Positions 3,452 to 43,342 of a DNA stretch of 64,000 nt are shown piece after piece. The DNA lies in the NCBI GenBank assembly GCA_025359785.1, contig JANYET010000026.1, positions 1 to 64,000 of the forward strand, read 5' to 3'. The DNA is from Alphaproteobacteria bacterium (lineage in GTDB: Bacteria > Pseudomonadota > Alphaproteobacteria > Caulobacterales > Caulobacteraceae). A program made the position numbers and the translations under genes. The first letter of the stretch is position 1. Every line of letters begins with the position of its first letter. The notes below the pieces were generated by a model that was not told where the DNA came from, searched no databases, and worked only from the letters and a program-made list of their open reading frames with translations.

Positions 3452-5233
3452 GTGGCGGCCTCGACGCTCGACCGCATTCCCGGCGGCTACGGGCTGCTCG
3501 CCGCGATAGTCGCCATCGCCCGACGGCCCGGTCTGGAGTGGCGCGCCTCCCGGCTCAATCAGCTCCGGCTTTCAGGCCCCTACCCCGAGGGCCTCGCCGC
3601 CGACCCGCACGACCTGCGGCCCGCCGACCCGGAGGCCGGCCGGCGCATCCTGGCCGGCGGCTTCGTGTTTGGCGGCGAGACGCTGAGCACCGGACCGCGC
3701 GGCGATCCCTGGGACCGGGCGAGCCCCAGCCGGCGGTTCGCACAGACCCTGCACGGCTTTGGCTGGCTCAAGGACCTGACGGCCCACGGCGATCCCGGCG
3801 CCTGGGAGGCGCTGCGCCTGACGCTGGCCTGGCGGCGGCTGTTCGCGCGCTGGAACGCGTTTTCGTGGGATGCCGAGGTGCTGGAGCGGCGGGTGTTCAA
3901 CCTGGCCTGTGCGATCCGCGCCCTGTCGGTTCCGGCGTCGGAGGCCGAGGCCGACCAGATCGCCGCCGATCTCGCCCATCAGGCGCGCTACCTGCTGGAC
4001 CTGCGCGAGGGCCCGGCGCGGGCCGCCGAGCGCGCGGTCGCCGCGGCGGTCGCCGGGACGGCCTTGGGCGGCCCCGCGGGCGAGGGTCTGCTGGAACGGG
4101 CGCTGGACCGCATGAGCCACGCCTTGAAGGAGACCTTGCGGTCGGACGGCGGGCACGCCAGCCGCAGCCCGCAGGCGGCGCTGGAGCTCTATTTCGATCT
4201 TTCGACACTGGACGAAGCGTTGACGCAGCGCGGCATGGCGGCGCCCGAGACCATGACGGTGGCGCTCGACCAGCTGGCGGAGGCGGTGCGGTTCTTCACC
4301 CTGGCGGACGGGCGGTTTCCAGCCTTCCAGGGCGGCGGTTCGCTGCCGCCCGGCTACGTCGCCGCCGCGCGCGCCGACGATCTGGCCGCAGAGCGCGCGG
4401 CGCCCATCGCGCGCAACGGCTACCACCGGATGGAGACCCGGGCGCTGCAGGTTGTCGCCGACGCCGCGCCGCCGGCCGCCGGGGCCTGGAGCGTTTCGGC
4501 CTGCGCCCAGCCCCTGGCGCTGGAAATCCTGGCCGGCGGCAAACGGCTGATCGTCGGGTCAGCCTGGTCGCCGGGCGCGGCCGGACCGCAGGCCTTGCGG
4601 CTGGTGGACGGCGCGTCCACCGCCTCAGTCGCCGACCTGCCGTGCGGTACGCCGCTGCGGGGCTTCGCGAGCCGGGTGCTGGGACCGCGTCTGCGCGACG
4701 CCTACAGCCTGCCCACCGCCCACCGGCACGACGCCAAGGGCGCGGTCTGGCTGGAGGTCTCGCACGACGGCTGGACCAAGCGGCTGGGCCTGCGCCACGA
4801 GCGCCGGCTCTACCTCGACGCCGCGTCCGACGAGCTGCGCGGCGAGGACGCCCTGGTCCCGGTCTCCGACAAGGCGCGACCCGACGGGCGGCGGTTCATC
4901 CCGTTCATGGTGCGCTTCCACCTGCACCCGCAGGTCAGCGCGCTGATCGCGCGCGACAAGAAGAGCGTGCTGCTGAAGGTCGAGGGCGAAGAGACCGGTT
5001 GGTGGCTGCGCAACGACGCGCTGGAGGTGACGCTCGCGCCGTCGACCTATCATCAGGACGGCATCGCCCGGCACGGACAGCAGATCGTCTTGCGGGGCCA
5101 GGCGCGGCTCGACGCCGGCGCCAAGGTGCGGTGGAAGCTGTCGGCCGCGTCACCGGAGCGGGCCGGCGACGACAAGGGTGGCGAGACCCACGTTGACGGC
5201 GCGCGTGTTGACCTGAATGGGGCGTCGGCCTAA
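3452..5233 (+). CDS. Heparinase II/III family protein
   Basis: This is a ~593-residue protein of the heparinase II/III-like family (alpha-helical N-terminal half, beta-sandwich C-terminal half). Recognisable family features are the tryptophan-rich start of the helical part, the SDGGHASRSPQA block in the middle (the substrate-cleft region) and the C-terminal run PFMVRFHLHPQVSA followed by KVEGEETGWWLRND. In alphaproteobacteria this gene is commonly found next to purH, as here; its substrate is not established, and heparin itself is unlikely. The frame stays open far upstream into rpe. I chose GTG 11 bases after the rpe stop because upstream codons only mirror rpe. There is no signal peptide from this start. 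Confidence 0.82.
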   Translation: MAASTLDRIPGGYGLLAAIVAIARRPGLEWRASRLNQLRLSGPYPEGLAADPHDLRPADPEAGRRILAGGFVFGGETLSTGPRGDPWDRASPSRRFAQTLHGFGWLKDLTAHGDPGAWEALRLTLAWRRLFARWNAFSWDAEVLERRVFNLACAIRALSVPASEAEADQIAADLAHQARYLLDLREGPARAAERAVAAAVAGTALGGPAGEGLLERALDRMSHALKETLRSDGGHASRSPQAALELYFDLSTLDEALTQRGMAAPETMTVALDQLAEAVRFFTLADGRFPAFQGGGSLPPGYVAAARADDLAAERAAPIARNGYHRMETRALQVVADAAPPAAGAWSVSACAQPLALEILAGGKRLIVGSAWSPGAAGPQALRLVDGASTASVADLPCGTPLRGFASRVLGPRLRDAYSLPTAHRHDAKGAVWLEVSHDGWTKRLGLRHERRLYLDAASDELRGEDALVPVSDKARPDGRRFIPFMVRFHLHPQVSALIARDKKSVLLKVEGEETGWWLRNDALEVTLAPSTYHQDGIARHGQQIVLRGQARLDAGAKVRWKLSAASPERAGDDKGGETHVDGARVDLNGASA

Positions 5234-5346
5234 GCCGCAGCCATTCCGCGTGACTGGCGAAACTGAGGTGGGTGACCACCGGGGAGCGCGGAACCATAGC
5301 GACCGCCGCTCGCCTGGGCATTTTTCCGAAACGCCAGGAGAATGCC

Positions 5347-6939
5347 GTGCCCGCCGCGCCTGATTTCCCGCCCGCTCCTGACCGCGCCCCGCTGAAGCGC
5401 GCGCTGATCAGCGTCTCCGACAAGACCGGCCTGATCGAGGCCGCCCGCGTCCTGGCCGCCGCCGGCGTGGAGTTGGTCTCCACGGGCGGCACGCGCAAGG
5501 CCATCGCCGACGCCGGGCTGCCGGTGAAGGACATCGCCGACCTGACCGGTTTCCCGGAGATGATGGACGGCCGGGTGAAGACCCTGCATCCGGTCGTGCA
5601 TGGCGGCCTGCTGGGCGTGCGCGACGCGCCGGAGCACGCCAAGGCCATGGCCGACCACGGCATCGGCGGCATCGATCTGGTCTATGTGAATCTCTACCCG
5701 TTCGAGCAGGCGGTGGCCTCCGGCGCGGACTATGTGACGGCGGTCGAGAACATCGACATCGGCGGCCCGGCGATGATCCGCTCGGCGGCCAAGAACCACG
5801 GCTACGTCGCCGTCTGCACCGAGATCGCCGACGTCGAGGAGGTGCTGGCCGACATGGCGGCGGACGGCGCCACCGGCCTGGACCTGCGCAAGCGCCTGGC
5901 GGCCAGGGCCTATGCCCGGACGGCGTCCTACGACGCGGCGATCTCGGCCTGGTTCGCCGAGGCCCTGGGCGACGAAGCCCCGAAGCGCCGGGCCTTCGCG
6001 GGCGAGCTGGTCCAGACCATGCGTTACGGCGAGAACCCGCATCAGAAGGCGGCCTTCTACCGCTTCCCCAATCCACGGACCGGGGTGGCCACGGCCAGGC
6101 AGCTGCAGGGAAAAGAGCTCAGCTACAACAACATCAACGACACCGACGCGGCCTATGAGCTGATCGCCGAGTTCGCGCCCGACGCGGGCCCCGCGTGCGC
6201 GATCATCAAACATGCCAACCCCTGCGGCGTGGCGACCGGCAAGACTCTGGTCGAGGCCTACGCGCGGGCGCTGGCCTGCGACCCGACCAGCGCTTTCGGC
6301 GGCATCATCGCCATGAACCAGAAGCTGGACGTGGCGACCGCCACCGAGATTCTGAAGCTGCTGACCGAGGTGGTGATCGCGCCCGACGCCGACGCCGACG
6401 CGGTCGAGCTGTTCCGCAAGAAGAAGAACGTCCGCCTGTTGACCACCGGCGGCATGCCCGATCCGCTGTCGCCCGGGATGACCTTCAAGTCGGTGGCCGG
6501 CGGTTTCCTGGTGCAGAGCCGCGATGACGCGCGCCTGGCCCGGTCCGATCTCAAGGTCGTCACCAAGCGGGCGCCGACCGAGACGGAGGTGGCCGACATG
6601 CTATTCGCCTTCACCATCGCCAAGCACGTCAAGTCCAACGCCATCGTCTATGCCAAAGACGGCCAGACGTTGGGCGTTGGCGCCGGGCAGATGAACCGCA
6701 AGGATAGCGCCCGGATCGCCGCCCTGCGCGCCGCCGACTTCGGCCTGGACCTGAAGGGCTCAGCCTGCGCCTCGGAGGCCTTCTTTCCGTTCCCCGACGG
6801 CCTGATCCAGGCGGCGGACGCCGGCTGCACGGCGGTGATCCAGCCCGGCGGGTCCATCGGCGATGCGGCGGTGATCGCGGCTGCCGACGAGCGGGGCCTG
6901 GCCATGGTGTTCACCGGCGTGCGGGTGTTCCGGCATTAG
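5347..6939 (+). CDS. purH: Bifunctional AICAR formyltransferase / IMP cyclohydrolase
   Basis: PurH catalyses the last two steps of IMP synthesis. The N-terminal cyclohydrolase domain opens with [11 protein letters not shown] and continues with the STGGT and HPVVHGG phosphate-binding loops. The C-terminal formyltransferase domain has KHANPCGVA, with its catalytic KH pair, and the late FFPFPDG and QPGGSIGD blocks. The product is 530 aa, normal for the family. An AGGAG site 6 bases upstream fixes the GTG start; an earlier in-frame start at 5272 would add residues not typical of PurH. It is convergent with gdhZ and closed by a strong hairpin. Confidence 0.95.
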
Positions 6940-27071: not shown

Positions 27072-28561
27072 ATCAGCGCCTCGGCGATGTGGACGCGGCG
27101 CACGGCGTCGGAGCCTTCCAGGTCGGCGATGGTCCGCGCCAGGCGCACCGTGCGGGTCCAGCCGCGGGCGGTGAGGCCGCCAGCCTCGGCGGCGCGGGTC
27201 AGCAGCGCCTTGGCCGGGGCGTCCAGGCCGGCGATGGTTTCCAGCCAGTCGCCGTCGGCCTGAGAATTGAGGGCGGACGCGCGGTCGCCGCCCGTCGCCG
27301 CGCGCTCGGCCTGGGTTGCGCGCGCCGCGGCCACCCGCGCGGCGGCTTCCTGCGTGCCCTCGGCGGGCGCGGGCAGGGCCAGATCGGCGGCGGTGACCGG
27401 CGGGACCTCCACCTGCAGGTCGATGCGGTCCATCAGTGGGCCGGAGATGCGGCTCAAGTAGTCGGTCTGACAGCGCGGTGCGCGCCCGCAGGCCCCGCGC
27501 CCGGCCCCGCCGTGTCCGCAGCGGCAGGGGTTCATCGCCGCCACCAGCTGGACGCGGGCCGGATAGCGCACGTGGGCGTTGGCGCGGGCCACGATCACCT
27601 CCCCGGTCTCCAGCGGCCCACGCAGGCTGTCCAGGGCCTGGGCGCTGAACTCCGGCAGTTCGTCGAGGAACAGCACGCCGTTGTGCGCCAGGCTGACCTC
27701 GCCGGGCTTGGCCTTCAGGCCGCCGCCGGTGAGCGCCGCCATGCTGGCCGAATGGTGGGGCGCGCGGAACGGCCGCGCGCGGGTGAGCTCGCCCTTGGCG
27801 ATCAGCCCCGCCACCGAATGGATCATCGAGGTCTCGAGCAGCTCCTCCGGCGTCAGCGGCGGCAGCAGGCCCGGCAGCCGCTGGGCCATCATCGACTTGC
27901 CGGAGCCGGGCGGTCCGACGAACGCCAGGTTGTGACCGCCGGCCGCGGCGATCTCCAGCGACCGCTTGGCGTTTTCCTGGCCCTTGACCTCGCGCAGGTC
28001 CGGCGCGCGCTCCGGCTCGCGCAGGGCGCCCACCACGGGCGGCGACAGAAGTTGGGTCCCACGGAAGTGATTGACCAGCGCGATCAGTGACGGGGCCGCC
28101 AGGATTCGCGTGCCGCCGGCCCAGGCGGCCTCCGGCCCGCAGGCCTCGGGACAGATCAGGCCCAGGCCCATCGCGCCCACCGCGATCGCGGCGGGCAGCG
28201 CGCCGGCCACCGCCGTGATGCGCCCGTCCAGGGACAGCTCGCCCACCGCCGCCCAGTCGTCCAGCGCGTCCGGCGGGATCACGTTCATGCCGGCCATGAT
28301 GGCCAGCGCGATGGGCAGGTCGTAGTGGCTGCCTTCCTTGGGCAGGTCGGCGGGCGCCAGGTTGGCGATGATCCGGCGGCTCGGCAGCGACAGGCCCAGC
28401 CCGGAGAAGGCGGCGCGCACCCGCTCGCGGCTTTCCGAGATCGCCTTGTCGCCCATGCCGACCAGAAAGAATTTCGCTTCGCCGCCGGTGAACTGCACCT
28501 GCACATCGACGCGCCGGGCCTCGACCCCCTGGAACGCCACCGTGACGACCCGCGCGGCCAT
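27017..28561 (-). CDS. comM: ComM/YifB family Mg-chelatase-like AAA+ ATPase
   Basis: ComM is a hexameric AAA+ helicase that promotes branch migration during integration of transforming DNA. The 514-residue product has the Lon-protease-like N-terminal domain (KEGSHYDLPIALAIM), Walker A GPPGSGKSMM near residue 215, Walker B VLFLDELPEF, the Cys-rich PCRCGH segment with the CGRAPRC pair, and the C-terminal Mg-chelatase domain ending in EALIYRR. The start is ATG. Upstream, within 85 bases, lie a DnaA box and a perfect LexA box, so it may belong to the SOS regulon in this organism. Confidence 0.92.
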   Translation of the reverse strand: MAARVVTVAFQGVEARRVDVQVQFTGGEAKFFLVGMGDKAISESRERVRAAFSGLGLSLPSRRIIANLAPADLPKEGSHYDLPIALAIMAGMNVIPPDALDDWAAVGELSLDGRITAVAGALPAAIAVGAMGLGLICPEACGPEAAWAGGTRILAAPSLIALVNHFRGTQLLSPPVVGALREPERAPDLREVKGQENAKRSLEIAAAGGHNLAFVGPPGSGKSMMAQRLPGLLPPLTPEELLETSMIHSVAGLIAKGELTRARPFRAPHHSASMAALTGGGLKAKPGEVSLAHNGVLFLDELPEFSAQALDSLRGPLETGEVIVARANAHVRYPARVQLVAAMNPCRCGHGGAGRGACGRAPRCQTDYLSRISGPLMDRIDLQVEVPPVTAADLALPAPAEGTQEAAARVAAARATQAERAATGGDRASALNSQADGDWLETIAGLDAPAKALLTRAAEAGGLTARGWTRTVRLARTIADLEGSDAVRRVHIAEALIYRRVAPGSAIGSPAMAR

Positions 28562-28626: not shown

Positions 28627-28641
28627 GAACAAAAATAGAAC
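28627..28641. promoter_or_regulatory. LexA (SOS) box upstream of comM
   Basis: GAACAAAAATAGAAC is a perfect GAAC-N7-GAAC direct repeat, the operator form used by LexA in Caulobacter and other alphaproteobacteria. It lies 66 bases upstream of comM and is the only regulatory-looking motif besides the DnaA box in the comM-gshB gap. It is nearly identical to the box in front of the toxin-like gene. Confidence 0.7.
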
Positions 28642-41454: not shown

Positions 41455-42123
41455 TCAGTGCTCGACGGGCTCGTCCAATGCCCGGAAGAAGCCCAGCAGT
41501 CCCACGACGATTAGAAATGCGCTCCCAAAGAGGGTTGCTCCGAGGGTATCTCCGGCTATCCCCACAAAGAACAGGAGAGGCGCCGCCACACCCGACAACG
41601 TCACGTAGAGAGCGAGTGCAAGGCATCCCCAAGCCGGCCGTCCGCCTTCTTTGCCCGCAGCGGAAATCGGACCGGAGCGGTCTTTCCTAGCCCGCTTTTT
41701 CGCTTCGGCCAGTTCGATCTCATCATCCGGAGGCCCTTCTTTGAGGGACCACCAGCAGACATCGTGGAACAGCGAGCTCTTCTTCAGCGCGGCATCCAGC
41801 TTCAACGCGAGTTCGGCGTAGGCGGCCGCATTCGGGGCGGCCCGCGAACGGAACGTCATATTCTCGAACAGCAGTCGGAATACCGGGTGAGACGTGGAGT
41901 TCACCTGGCACCAGAACCTGTGCCGCTCCTTGTATTTCACGGCGAATTCCCAACCGTTCTCGCCCGCCGGCTTCGGTTCCTCCACCTCGCAGCCAAGCCG
42001 CGCGAGAATCTCGCCGATTGCGACGGCGACGTTGCGACCGCCAAAGACAACAATGTCCTGCTCGTTCTCGACTTGATCGTCCGGCAAGTCCGTCCGGAAG
42101 GCGACCCAGGGTTTAACCCTCAT
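41455..42123 (-). CDS. Putative immunity-type membrane protein paired with toxin-like gene
   Basis: This 222-residue protein of unknown family has a soluble N-terminal domain of about 160 residues, with a conserved-looking core (DIVVFGGRNVAVAIGEILAR, WEFAVKYKERHRFWCQVNST), and two membrane helices at the end (around LALALYVTLSGVAAPLLFFV and FLIVVGLLGFF). Its ATG overlaps the TGA of the toxin-like gene (ATGA), implying translational coupling. Position and coupling suggest an immunity role against that toxin; the sequence alone does not prove it. Its GC content is below that of the neighbours, which fits acquired DNA. Confidence 0.6.
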   Translation of the reverse strand: MRVKPWVAFRTDLPDDQVENEQDIVVFGGRNVAVAIGEILARLGCEVEEPKPAGENGWEFAVKYKERHRFWCQVNSTSHPVFRLLFENMTFRSRAAPNAAAYAELALKLDAALKKSSLFHDVCWWSLKEGPPDDEIELAEAKKRARKDRSGPISAAGKEGGRPAWGCLALALYVTLSGVAAPLLFFVGIAGDTLGATLFGSAFLIVVGLLGFFRALDEPVEH

Positions 42124-43252
42124 TGCGACGTCTCGAGTTTATCATAGAACCTCGGCGCATCGACGAACGGAACTGCGGCCATGGCGTCTTTCAGTGGAAC
42201 GGGCATTCCCTTCCAAATGCGCTCAGGCAGGCCGTATTTGATCAGGCCGAGTTCCTTTGGCCGCCAGCCCTTACCGCCGTTCAAATCAGCGGGGAGCCTG
42301 AATCCACCGGCCTTAGGGTCCACTTGATAGTGGTATTTGTAGAAGTCGCTCCGCGACATGCCCCGCGGCTCTGCAAGATTCAGCCGACTGTCAACCAGCC
42401 AAGCCGGCAGGCCCGCGTCTTTGGCTTGTCGCTTTGATATTATCGAATGGTGGCTGCTACCCTTGTAGGGTTGAGACATATACTCGGCCAACCTGGGATT
42501 GGCGCCTTCCTCGATCAGCTTGGCGACCCTCGCAGGTTTTGTCGCTTCGAACATCTTCGCCGCCCGCAAGCCTTGAACGGCTTCGCCGCCGGCGAACATC
42601 CCTGCCACATTGGTCGCCGCTTCGCCGAAATTCAGCCCGTGCTCGAACTGATGATGCGCGACATCCGATAGGCTTCCGCCGCTTCGCGCTGCGCCTGAGC
42701 CTTGGCTGGGGGTCCGAAAGCGCCAGCCCATTTGAGACCAAAATAGCCGGCGTCCCACAAGTCTCGCGCTGCATCCCCCACGGCTAGCGGCGCGCCGAGG
42801 ACCGTCCCGCCTACGTAGGCTCCCGCCCCCGCGCCGAACTTTGCCGCCGTCTCCCACCAAGGTTGTGCTTGGGACGGAGCGCGCCTTGGCACAGGCCGGG
42901 GCATTGGCATCGGCAGGTCGGCTGCAACCGGGTTGCCGGTCCACATATTCTGACCGCCGTCGAACCGCGACTGGAATTGAGCATCGTCCACCCGCTGCGC
43001 ACGAAGCGCGGCCTTGCTGGCGGCATCGCGCCGGAAGCGCGGTGCGTTCACCGGCCCGTTTCCGAGAGCTACGACATCCGCCGGGCGTCCGGCGTCGAGA
43101 TACTCGCCGGAGCGAGTCGAGGCGCTCCAACGGTCGCGGCCAGCGGAAGCCAGAGCCTCGCGTTGCGCGACTTGATCGTTCTGATCGTCCATCCAGGCTT
43201 CGATGGGCTGATCGTCGTCCGACACCGCAGATCCGAAGCGGCTCCAACCCAT
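42120..43252 (-). pseudogene. Polymorphic-toxin-like protein, split by a frameshift
   Basis: Two frames on the minus strand join near 42660-42670. The first runs from ATG 43252 (MGWSRFGSAVSDDDQPIEAW) to a stop at 42632 and holds a Gly-rich hydrophobic pre-toxin-like stretch (AGAGAYVGGTVLGAPLAVGDA). The second carries on in the next frame from about SDVAHHQFEHGL to the end (stop 42120). It contains SSHHSIISKRQ, GLPAWLVDSRLN and MSRSDFYKYHY, which look like a small C-terminal toxin domain with a double-histidine motif, possibly nuclease; I cannot name the family. The span is 1133 bases, one short of a whole number of codons, so a single base loss explains the break. AAGGG precedes the start, and a LexA box lies upstream. 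Confidence 0.6.
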
Positions 43253-43327
43253 GCGCTTGCGCCCTTCTGCTGATGCCCGGCACTGGCCGAGCCGCAAAAA
43301 CATGCCAGAGAACGATATTTGCGTTAA

Positions 43328-43342
43328 GAACAAAACAAGAAC
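43328..43342. promoter_or_regulatory. LexA (SOS) box upstream of toxin-like gene
   Basis: GAACAAAACAAGAAC is a perfect GAAC-N7-GAAC (GTTC-N7-GTTC on the gene strand), 76 bases before the toxin start, in an AT-rich promoter-like stretch (ATTAATATTG beside it). It differs from the box before comM at only two of 15 positions. Confidence 0.75.

Follow-up and report, generated by a model that had tools for sequence, protein, structure and literature searches.

Gene content of the locus

The window analysed here is the whole stretch of 64,000 nucleotides at positions 1 to 64,000 of contig JANYET010000026.1 (assembly GCA_025359785.1), from a Caulobacteraceae bacterium that most likely belongs to Phenylobacterium or a close ally. 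On its minus strand a toxin-like gene is followed by a partner gene for a putative immunity protein, and a LexA-type operator matching GTTC-N7-GTTC perfectly (GTTCTTGTTTTGTTC, positions 43328 to 43342) lies upstream of the toxin-like gene, whose ATG is at position 43252. The toxin-like gene was found to be broken. Its N-terminal piece (positions 42665 to 43252) matched residues 1 to 196 of the natural protein P0032 (420 amino acids) and its C-terminal piece (positions 42123 to 42677) matched residues 236 to 420; the two pieces were 98–99% identical to P0032 in different reading frames, with about 39 residues missing and the frame changed. Intact copies of the gene exist elsewhere. By its reading frames, the window strain cannot make the whole toxin and can still make the partner.

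The N-terminal piece begins with a shared domain of about 75 amino acids (positions 43031 to 43252; E 3.4e-21 with profile A5, which has 33 rows, the window stretch itself being one of them). The C-terminal piece ends in a toxin-like domain, here named [SG]HH (positions 42123 to 42539), with a conserved HH, N and H; it carries SHH in the window and was matched at E 1.9e-60 by a profile that includes the window sequence as a row. As judged by eye, this C-domain is preceded by a Gly-rich hydrophobic stretch. The intact partner gene (222 amino acids, positions 41455 to 42123) overlaps the stop codon of the toxin-like gene in an ATGA. Its product contains a conserved alpha/beta domain (positions 41716 to 42123), common to the short partners found outside Caulobacteraceae and modelled with a KA1-like fold, followed at residues 165 to 217 (positions 41473 to 41631) by two predicted transmembrane-type helices in the structure model, which are missing from the short partners in the alignment. 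Downstream of the partner, inspection by eye showed a convergent open reading frame (ORF) resembling an ATP-binding cassette transporter and, at the window locus, no lysis gene directly after the partner.

The first-pass annotation of this DNA had described a perfect LexA operator before the toxin start, an ATGA overlap between the two genes, a double-histidine domain behind a Gly-rich hydrophobic stretch and a membrane protein as partner. Each of these features was recovered, the gap from operator to ATG being 75 bases instead of the 76 given, and the two long C-terminal helices of the structure model agree with a partner in the membrane.

A shared N-terminal domain usually preceded by a predicted SOS-type operator

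Among 390 Caulobacteraceae genomes, 50 contained the N-terminal domain, at 69 places in total. It occurred in 3 of the 22 genera of the family and was almost confined to Phenylobacterium; the genome counts are lower bounds, as only the best first-pass candidates per genome were scored. Pfam scans gave no match between this domain and a named trafficking domain. For the analysis of operators, 67 of the 69 places were used and two without a fetched locus were dropped; the 67 still include some of the weakest matches that are probably not members (for example L159, which resembles an unrelated enzyme).

Within the window alone, GAAC-N7-GAAC was counted four times over the two strands, a number reached by 2 of 100 shuffled sequences. 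Taken by itself this is weak evidence, the motif being mildly rarer than expected by chance. It becomes strong evidence once the operators of the relatives are added. At 53 of the 67 places, a perfect GTTC-N7-GTTC was present on the coding strand no more than 200 bases upstream of the gene, and at 52 of 67 when a second method was used to define the starts. For comparison, ten 200-base windows displaced from these starts yielded 6 matches in 626 (0 to 2 per window), and the pattern read backward gave 5 matches in the same 67 upstream windows on both strands. The window's own genome contains 52 + 58 GTTC-N7-GTTC repeats in 4,216,562 bases, from which about 0.2 matches would be expected in 67 windows. 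Near-duplicate sequences do not explain the enrichment, because 49 of 62 upstream clusters contain the box. The spacer was also conserved, with T at positions 9 to 11 in 51 or 52 of 52 boxes, and among the 15 upstream regions lacking a perfect box in the 52/67 count, five (L131, L126, L053, L160 and L161) had a one-mismatch box with the same T-rich spacer.

GTTC-N7-GTTC is given as the SOS box of Caulobacter crescentus (PMC9578287, Table 1) and also appears as the Caulobacter SOS box in PMC12907096. Both recA and lexA of the window's genome are preceded by GTTC-N7-GTTC, although the repeat there lies on the opposite strand and lacks the T-rich spacer. SOS control of the pair, as proposed in the first-pass annotation, is thus supported at the level of sequence by the perfect operators of 53 of the 67 related genes.

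A ComM/YifB-like Mg-chelatase gene (PF01078; positions 27125 to 28561, minus strand) has a perfect GTTC-N7-GTTC box at positions 28641 to 28627 on its coding strand, 65 bases upstream and with a T-rich spacer, and is likely another SOS gene in the window. Elsewhere in the same genome, contigs C64 and C35 hold four similar ORFs of about 205 to 214 amino acids (L164, L165, L166 and L167), each starting at a GTTC-N7-GTTC box; the one that was scanned matched no Pfam family. By sequence likeness they are an unexplained family of SOS-box paralogues.

The [SG]HH domain and its partner as a unit

The C-domain profile matched 48 places in 39 of the 390 Caulobacteraceae genomes, 34 of them in the window's genus. 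A set of 49 non-duplicate loci was examined for the partner, from which duplicates of named loci and the weakest match (L058, no hit with a trimmed profile) were left out. The partner domain started between −60 and +200 nucleotides from the toxin stop in 47 of the 49, and in 36 of these 47 the two genes overlapped by four bases (start at −4). At the remaining two loci, one partner was 251 nucleotides away and one was fused with a toxin remnant in a single ORF. The first approximately 140 partner residues were common to all aligned rows. The toxin–immunity layout suggested by the first-pass annotation therefore recurs in other genomes, with the two genes side by side in 47 of 49 loci.

Among 12 diverse members of the C-domain, the columns without variation included the second H of [SG]HH and, after it, S, N, Y, H and D; the first H was nearly invariant. 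PMC3482391 tabulates [SG]HH...H as the pattern of the Tox-SHH clade, which belongs to the HNH/EndoVII toxins. Assignment of the C-domain to SHH fails the profile test, as no Pfam or NCBIfam profile matched.

The same C-domain was found on other carriers. In Sphingomonas (L008) it follows a PT-TG pre-toxin domain (PF14449, E 1.4e-7, above the cut-off), and in a member of the Phycisphaerales (L011) it forms the tip of an RHS-like protein, whose RHS repeat scored 21.2 bits against a cut-off of 22. A short partner adjoins the toxin domain on both carriers. Across these carriers, the C-domain therefore behaves as an exchangeable cassette. A search for more long carriers of the C-domain found none, and the plasmid records searched contained no match to it. 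Behind the toxin/partner pair of L011, positions 3886 to 5703 of that locus hold a second RHS-like core copy with a different C-terminus, the layout of displaced RHS tips.

A second, intact pair was present in the same genome on contig C32, with a toxin-like gene of 465 amino acids and a partner of 224 amino acids that was 45% identical to the window partner over residues 2 to 183. This pair has its own operator, GTTCATGCTTTGTTC, 96 bases upstream. An operator also precedes the toxin gene in five named Caulobacteraceae loci (L004, L005, L006, L007 and L009). None was present upstream of L012, a toxin remnant with partner, or of the toxin domain and partner in L008 and in L010 (Sphingorhabdus); in L011 the gene start lies outside the stretch examined, and absence of an operator cannot be judged there.

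In several loci the partner was retained beside a remnant or shortened toxin (the window, L012, L053, L055, L057 and L142). At L005 there is an additional partner behind a separate operator, L052 has two partners in a row, and the L142 partner holds two copies of the partner domain. At L040 and L042 a perfect operator is directly followed by a toxin domain of about 160 amino acids without the N-terminal domain, and the partner is present. From their gene layout, these two may be either deletion products or a version acting within the cell.

Six tail types and their partner families

At least six tail types were found after the one N-terminal domain: [SG]HH, HNH-like, two with E-x-K motifs, serum amyloid A (SAA) and HExxH-like. 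Single-linkage BLAST of the last 130 residues divided the tails of 56 ORFs into groups of 23, 16, 9, 2 and 2 plus singles, with no link between groups at E 1e-3. Eleven of the 67 loci, with too short an ORF behind the N-terminal domain, were excluded from this grouping, and the window and L123, which are broken or frame-shifted, fall alone in it.

When the downstream ORFs were clustered, most tail classes represented by at least two loci proved to have a specific partner family. Nine HNH-like loci have partners from a single family, in which 7 of 7 members scanned matched Pfam SUKH-1 (best E 6.3e-9; the first member alone was below the cut-off). SUKH proteins are described as immunity proteins for many toxin types, nucleases above all (PMC3482391). 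Partners of the LELKPDT class, clustered from two loci and one truncated locus, were DUF4304-like (L122, E 4e-6, above the cut-off; L145, E 2.8e-4, below it). For the E-x-K-F-G class two downstream families were found (7 and 3 loci), and none was recognised at several other loci. At the two EHERQH (HExxH-like) loci the partners open with a hydrophobic stretch ending in cysteine, which we read as lipoprotein-like. The tail of L138 is an SAA domain (PF00277, E 4.3e-26), which would be unusual in a presumed bacterial toxin.

Taken together, these sequences show six tails behind a single type of operator and a single N-terminal domain, and the classes with at least two loci mostly share their own partner family.

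Interpretation and alternative explanations

These findings indicate that the window probably holds a damaged copy (broken toxin-like gene, intact partner) of an SOS-controlled family of polymorphic toxin/immunity pairs that would likely act in a colicin-like way against related bacteria. The first-pass annotation had proposed a toxin/immunity-like pair under DNA-damage control; beyond this, the pair is, judged by its sequence relatives, one cassette of a polymorphic class in which the window's own toxin-like gene is broken. The wider proposal, to which we give even chances, is of a genus-wide class of SOS-switched polymorphic toxins with one undescribed N-terminal delivery domain of about 75 residues, one LexA operator and six types of toxin, each with its own immunity proteins. 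These toxins would work as colicins do, in bacteria that have no type VI secretion, and possibly with a new route of exit from the producer and entry into the target. LexA binding and release, toxicity, nuclease action, immunity and export are what we infer for this family.

In the proposed mechanism, DNA damage would cause LexA to leave the operator, and toxin and immunity protein would be made together. The toxin would then exit the cell, probably through lysis of damaged cells. In longer relatives, a LysM-like domain may hold the toxin on peptidoglycan, and the Gly-rich middle part could help the toxin to cross the inner membrane. In the target, the [SG]HH domain would cut nucleic acid. The partner would neutralise the toxin through its conserved alpha/beta domain, tethered in the window by the two predicted membrane helices. 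The immunity side alone could still be intact in the window strain, a state seen at several other loci.

With regard to delivery, one genome among the 101 of the genus had the type VI sheath gene VipA, and that genome does not carry the N-terminal domain; a type VI route is therefore unlikely. With the sheath gene almost always missing and no visible secretion signal, our best guess is that, by analogy with colicins, the toxin is released when damaged cells lyse. The toxin could instead be the cargo of a type IV secretion system and not diffusible, given that genes of the VirB4 family (PF03135) were present in 79 of the 101 genomes. However, VirB4 does not track carriage of the N-terminal domain, with a match in 37 of 47 carriers versus 42 of 54 other genomes of the genus. 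Type IV secretion signals often lie at the C-terminus, which here is occupied by the variable toxin, and we consider this route very improbable.

Several observations weigh against the colicin-like interpretation. No perfect operator was found at 14 of the 67 places; by tail group, the perfect box was present at 22 of 23, 14 of 16, 4 of 9, 2 of 2 and 1 of 2 loci, and the single SAA locus had none within 200 bases, its nearest lying 368 bases upstream. No lysis gene was recognised at the window, where it was looked for, and no known secretion signal was recognised. A LysM-like segment was seen in longer relatives, and Pfam found no LysM in P0033 at E 0.5. As to the C-domain, it has no Pfam or NCBIfam profile match and no solved structural relative beyond a match at chance level (E 0.83), and its model was moderate (predicted local distance difference test, pLDDT, about 59 to 78 in blocks of ten) with no informative fold match. 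For these reasons its action as a putative nuclease rests on likeness of motif. The profile search likewise matched no metabolic or structural family, an outcome in keeping with the toxin-like role first proposed for it.

The bare toxin domains of L040 and L042 would fit action inside the cell, and with their operators they are the strongest evidence for SOS-triggered self-killing, in which, as described for Caulobacter BapE, the damaged cell would be attacked from within by its own toxin, and the partner would serve as a delaying antitoxin. LexA-type operators, together with neither a secretion signal nor a lysis gene being seen, fit this explanation as well, and BapE has been described as an SOS-induced endonuclease that promotes damage-induced death. 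In contrast, six different tails on one N-terminal domain, the LysM-like segment of longer relatives, the lipoprotein-like partners of the HExxH-like class, the membrane-anchored partners, and the tandem and orphan partners (L005, L052 and L142) all point outwards. Attack from outside is favoured by the variety of tails, by the LysM-like segment and by partners that look like lipoproteins or are anchored in the membrane, and self-killing is judged unlikely. That the operator is a chance LexA-like repeat beside an ordinary gene pair, with no toxin at all, would agree with the mild rarity of the motif in the window. However, an operator at 53 of 67 related genes versus 6 of 626 shifted windows, the 5 matches of the backward-read pattern and the partner in 47 of 49 loci make this reading barely credible, and a chance origin of the operator was already refuted by the two controls.

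Comparison with known systems

Colicins have the immunity gene next to the toxin gene, and this family resembles colicins and nuclease bacteriocins in having a LexA operator before the toxin, an adjoining immunity gene, a C-terminal toxin domain and a modular front part. The SOS coupling and three-part structure of colicins are described in PMC5536347. The family differs from them in its direct-repeat operator of Caulobacter type, its chromosomal contigs, its other N-terminal domain and in that no lysis gene was recognised in the window. Among the members scanned with Pfam, none matched a colicin family (translocation, receptor or cytotoxic domain). The family would work like a colicin operon and has the build of a polymorphic toxin system, but its domain content is not that of a colicin.

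The polymorphic toxin systems described by Zhang et al. (2012; PMC3482391) share with it a common N-terminal part, exchangeable C-terminal toxins, an adjoining immunity gene, SUKH immunity, and PT-TG and RHS carriers. In contrast to them, the present family has a shared SOS-type operator; neither LexA nor SOS occurs in the first 300,000 of the 357,715 characters of that article. The C-domain has [SG]HH followed by a conserved N and H, as in the Tox-SHH toxins of HNH/EndoVII fold in its table, but it lacks a Pfam profile match, and the [SG]HH partners scanned were not SUKH-like by Pfam. BapE of C. crescentus, described as an SOS-induced DNA endonuclease, is by its description the nearest functional relative encountered in the literature. 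However, BapE is described as promoting the death of its own cell. The N-terminal domain of this family was found in 3 of 22 genera. Among the literature matches listed, there was no published account of SOS-controlled polymorphic toxins in Phenylobacterium.

Biological significance

If this interpretation is correct, Caulobacter-related Alphaproteobacteria would possess a weapon system of their own that resembles colicins, responds to DNA damage and mounts interchangeable warheads on a single front end. The family would then allow a clear-cut test of why unrelated bacteria couple toxin production to the SOS response. The short N-terminal domain identified here would allow its delivery route to be sought directly, and several toxin and immunity families still without a name come into view. 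Some of the order's SOS-box genes with no assigned function may also find a role in this way.
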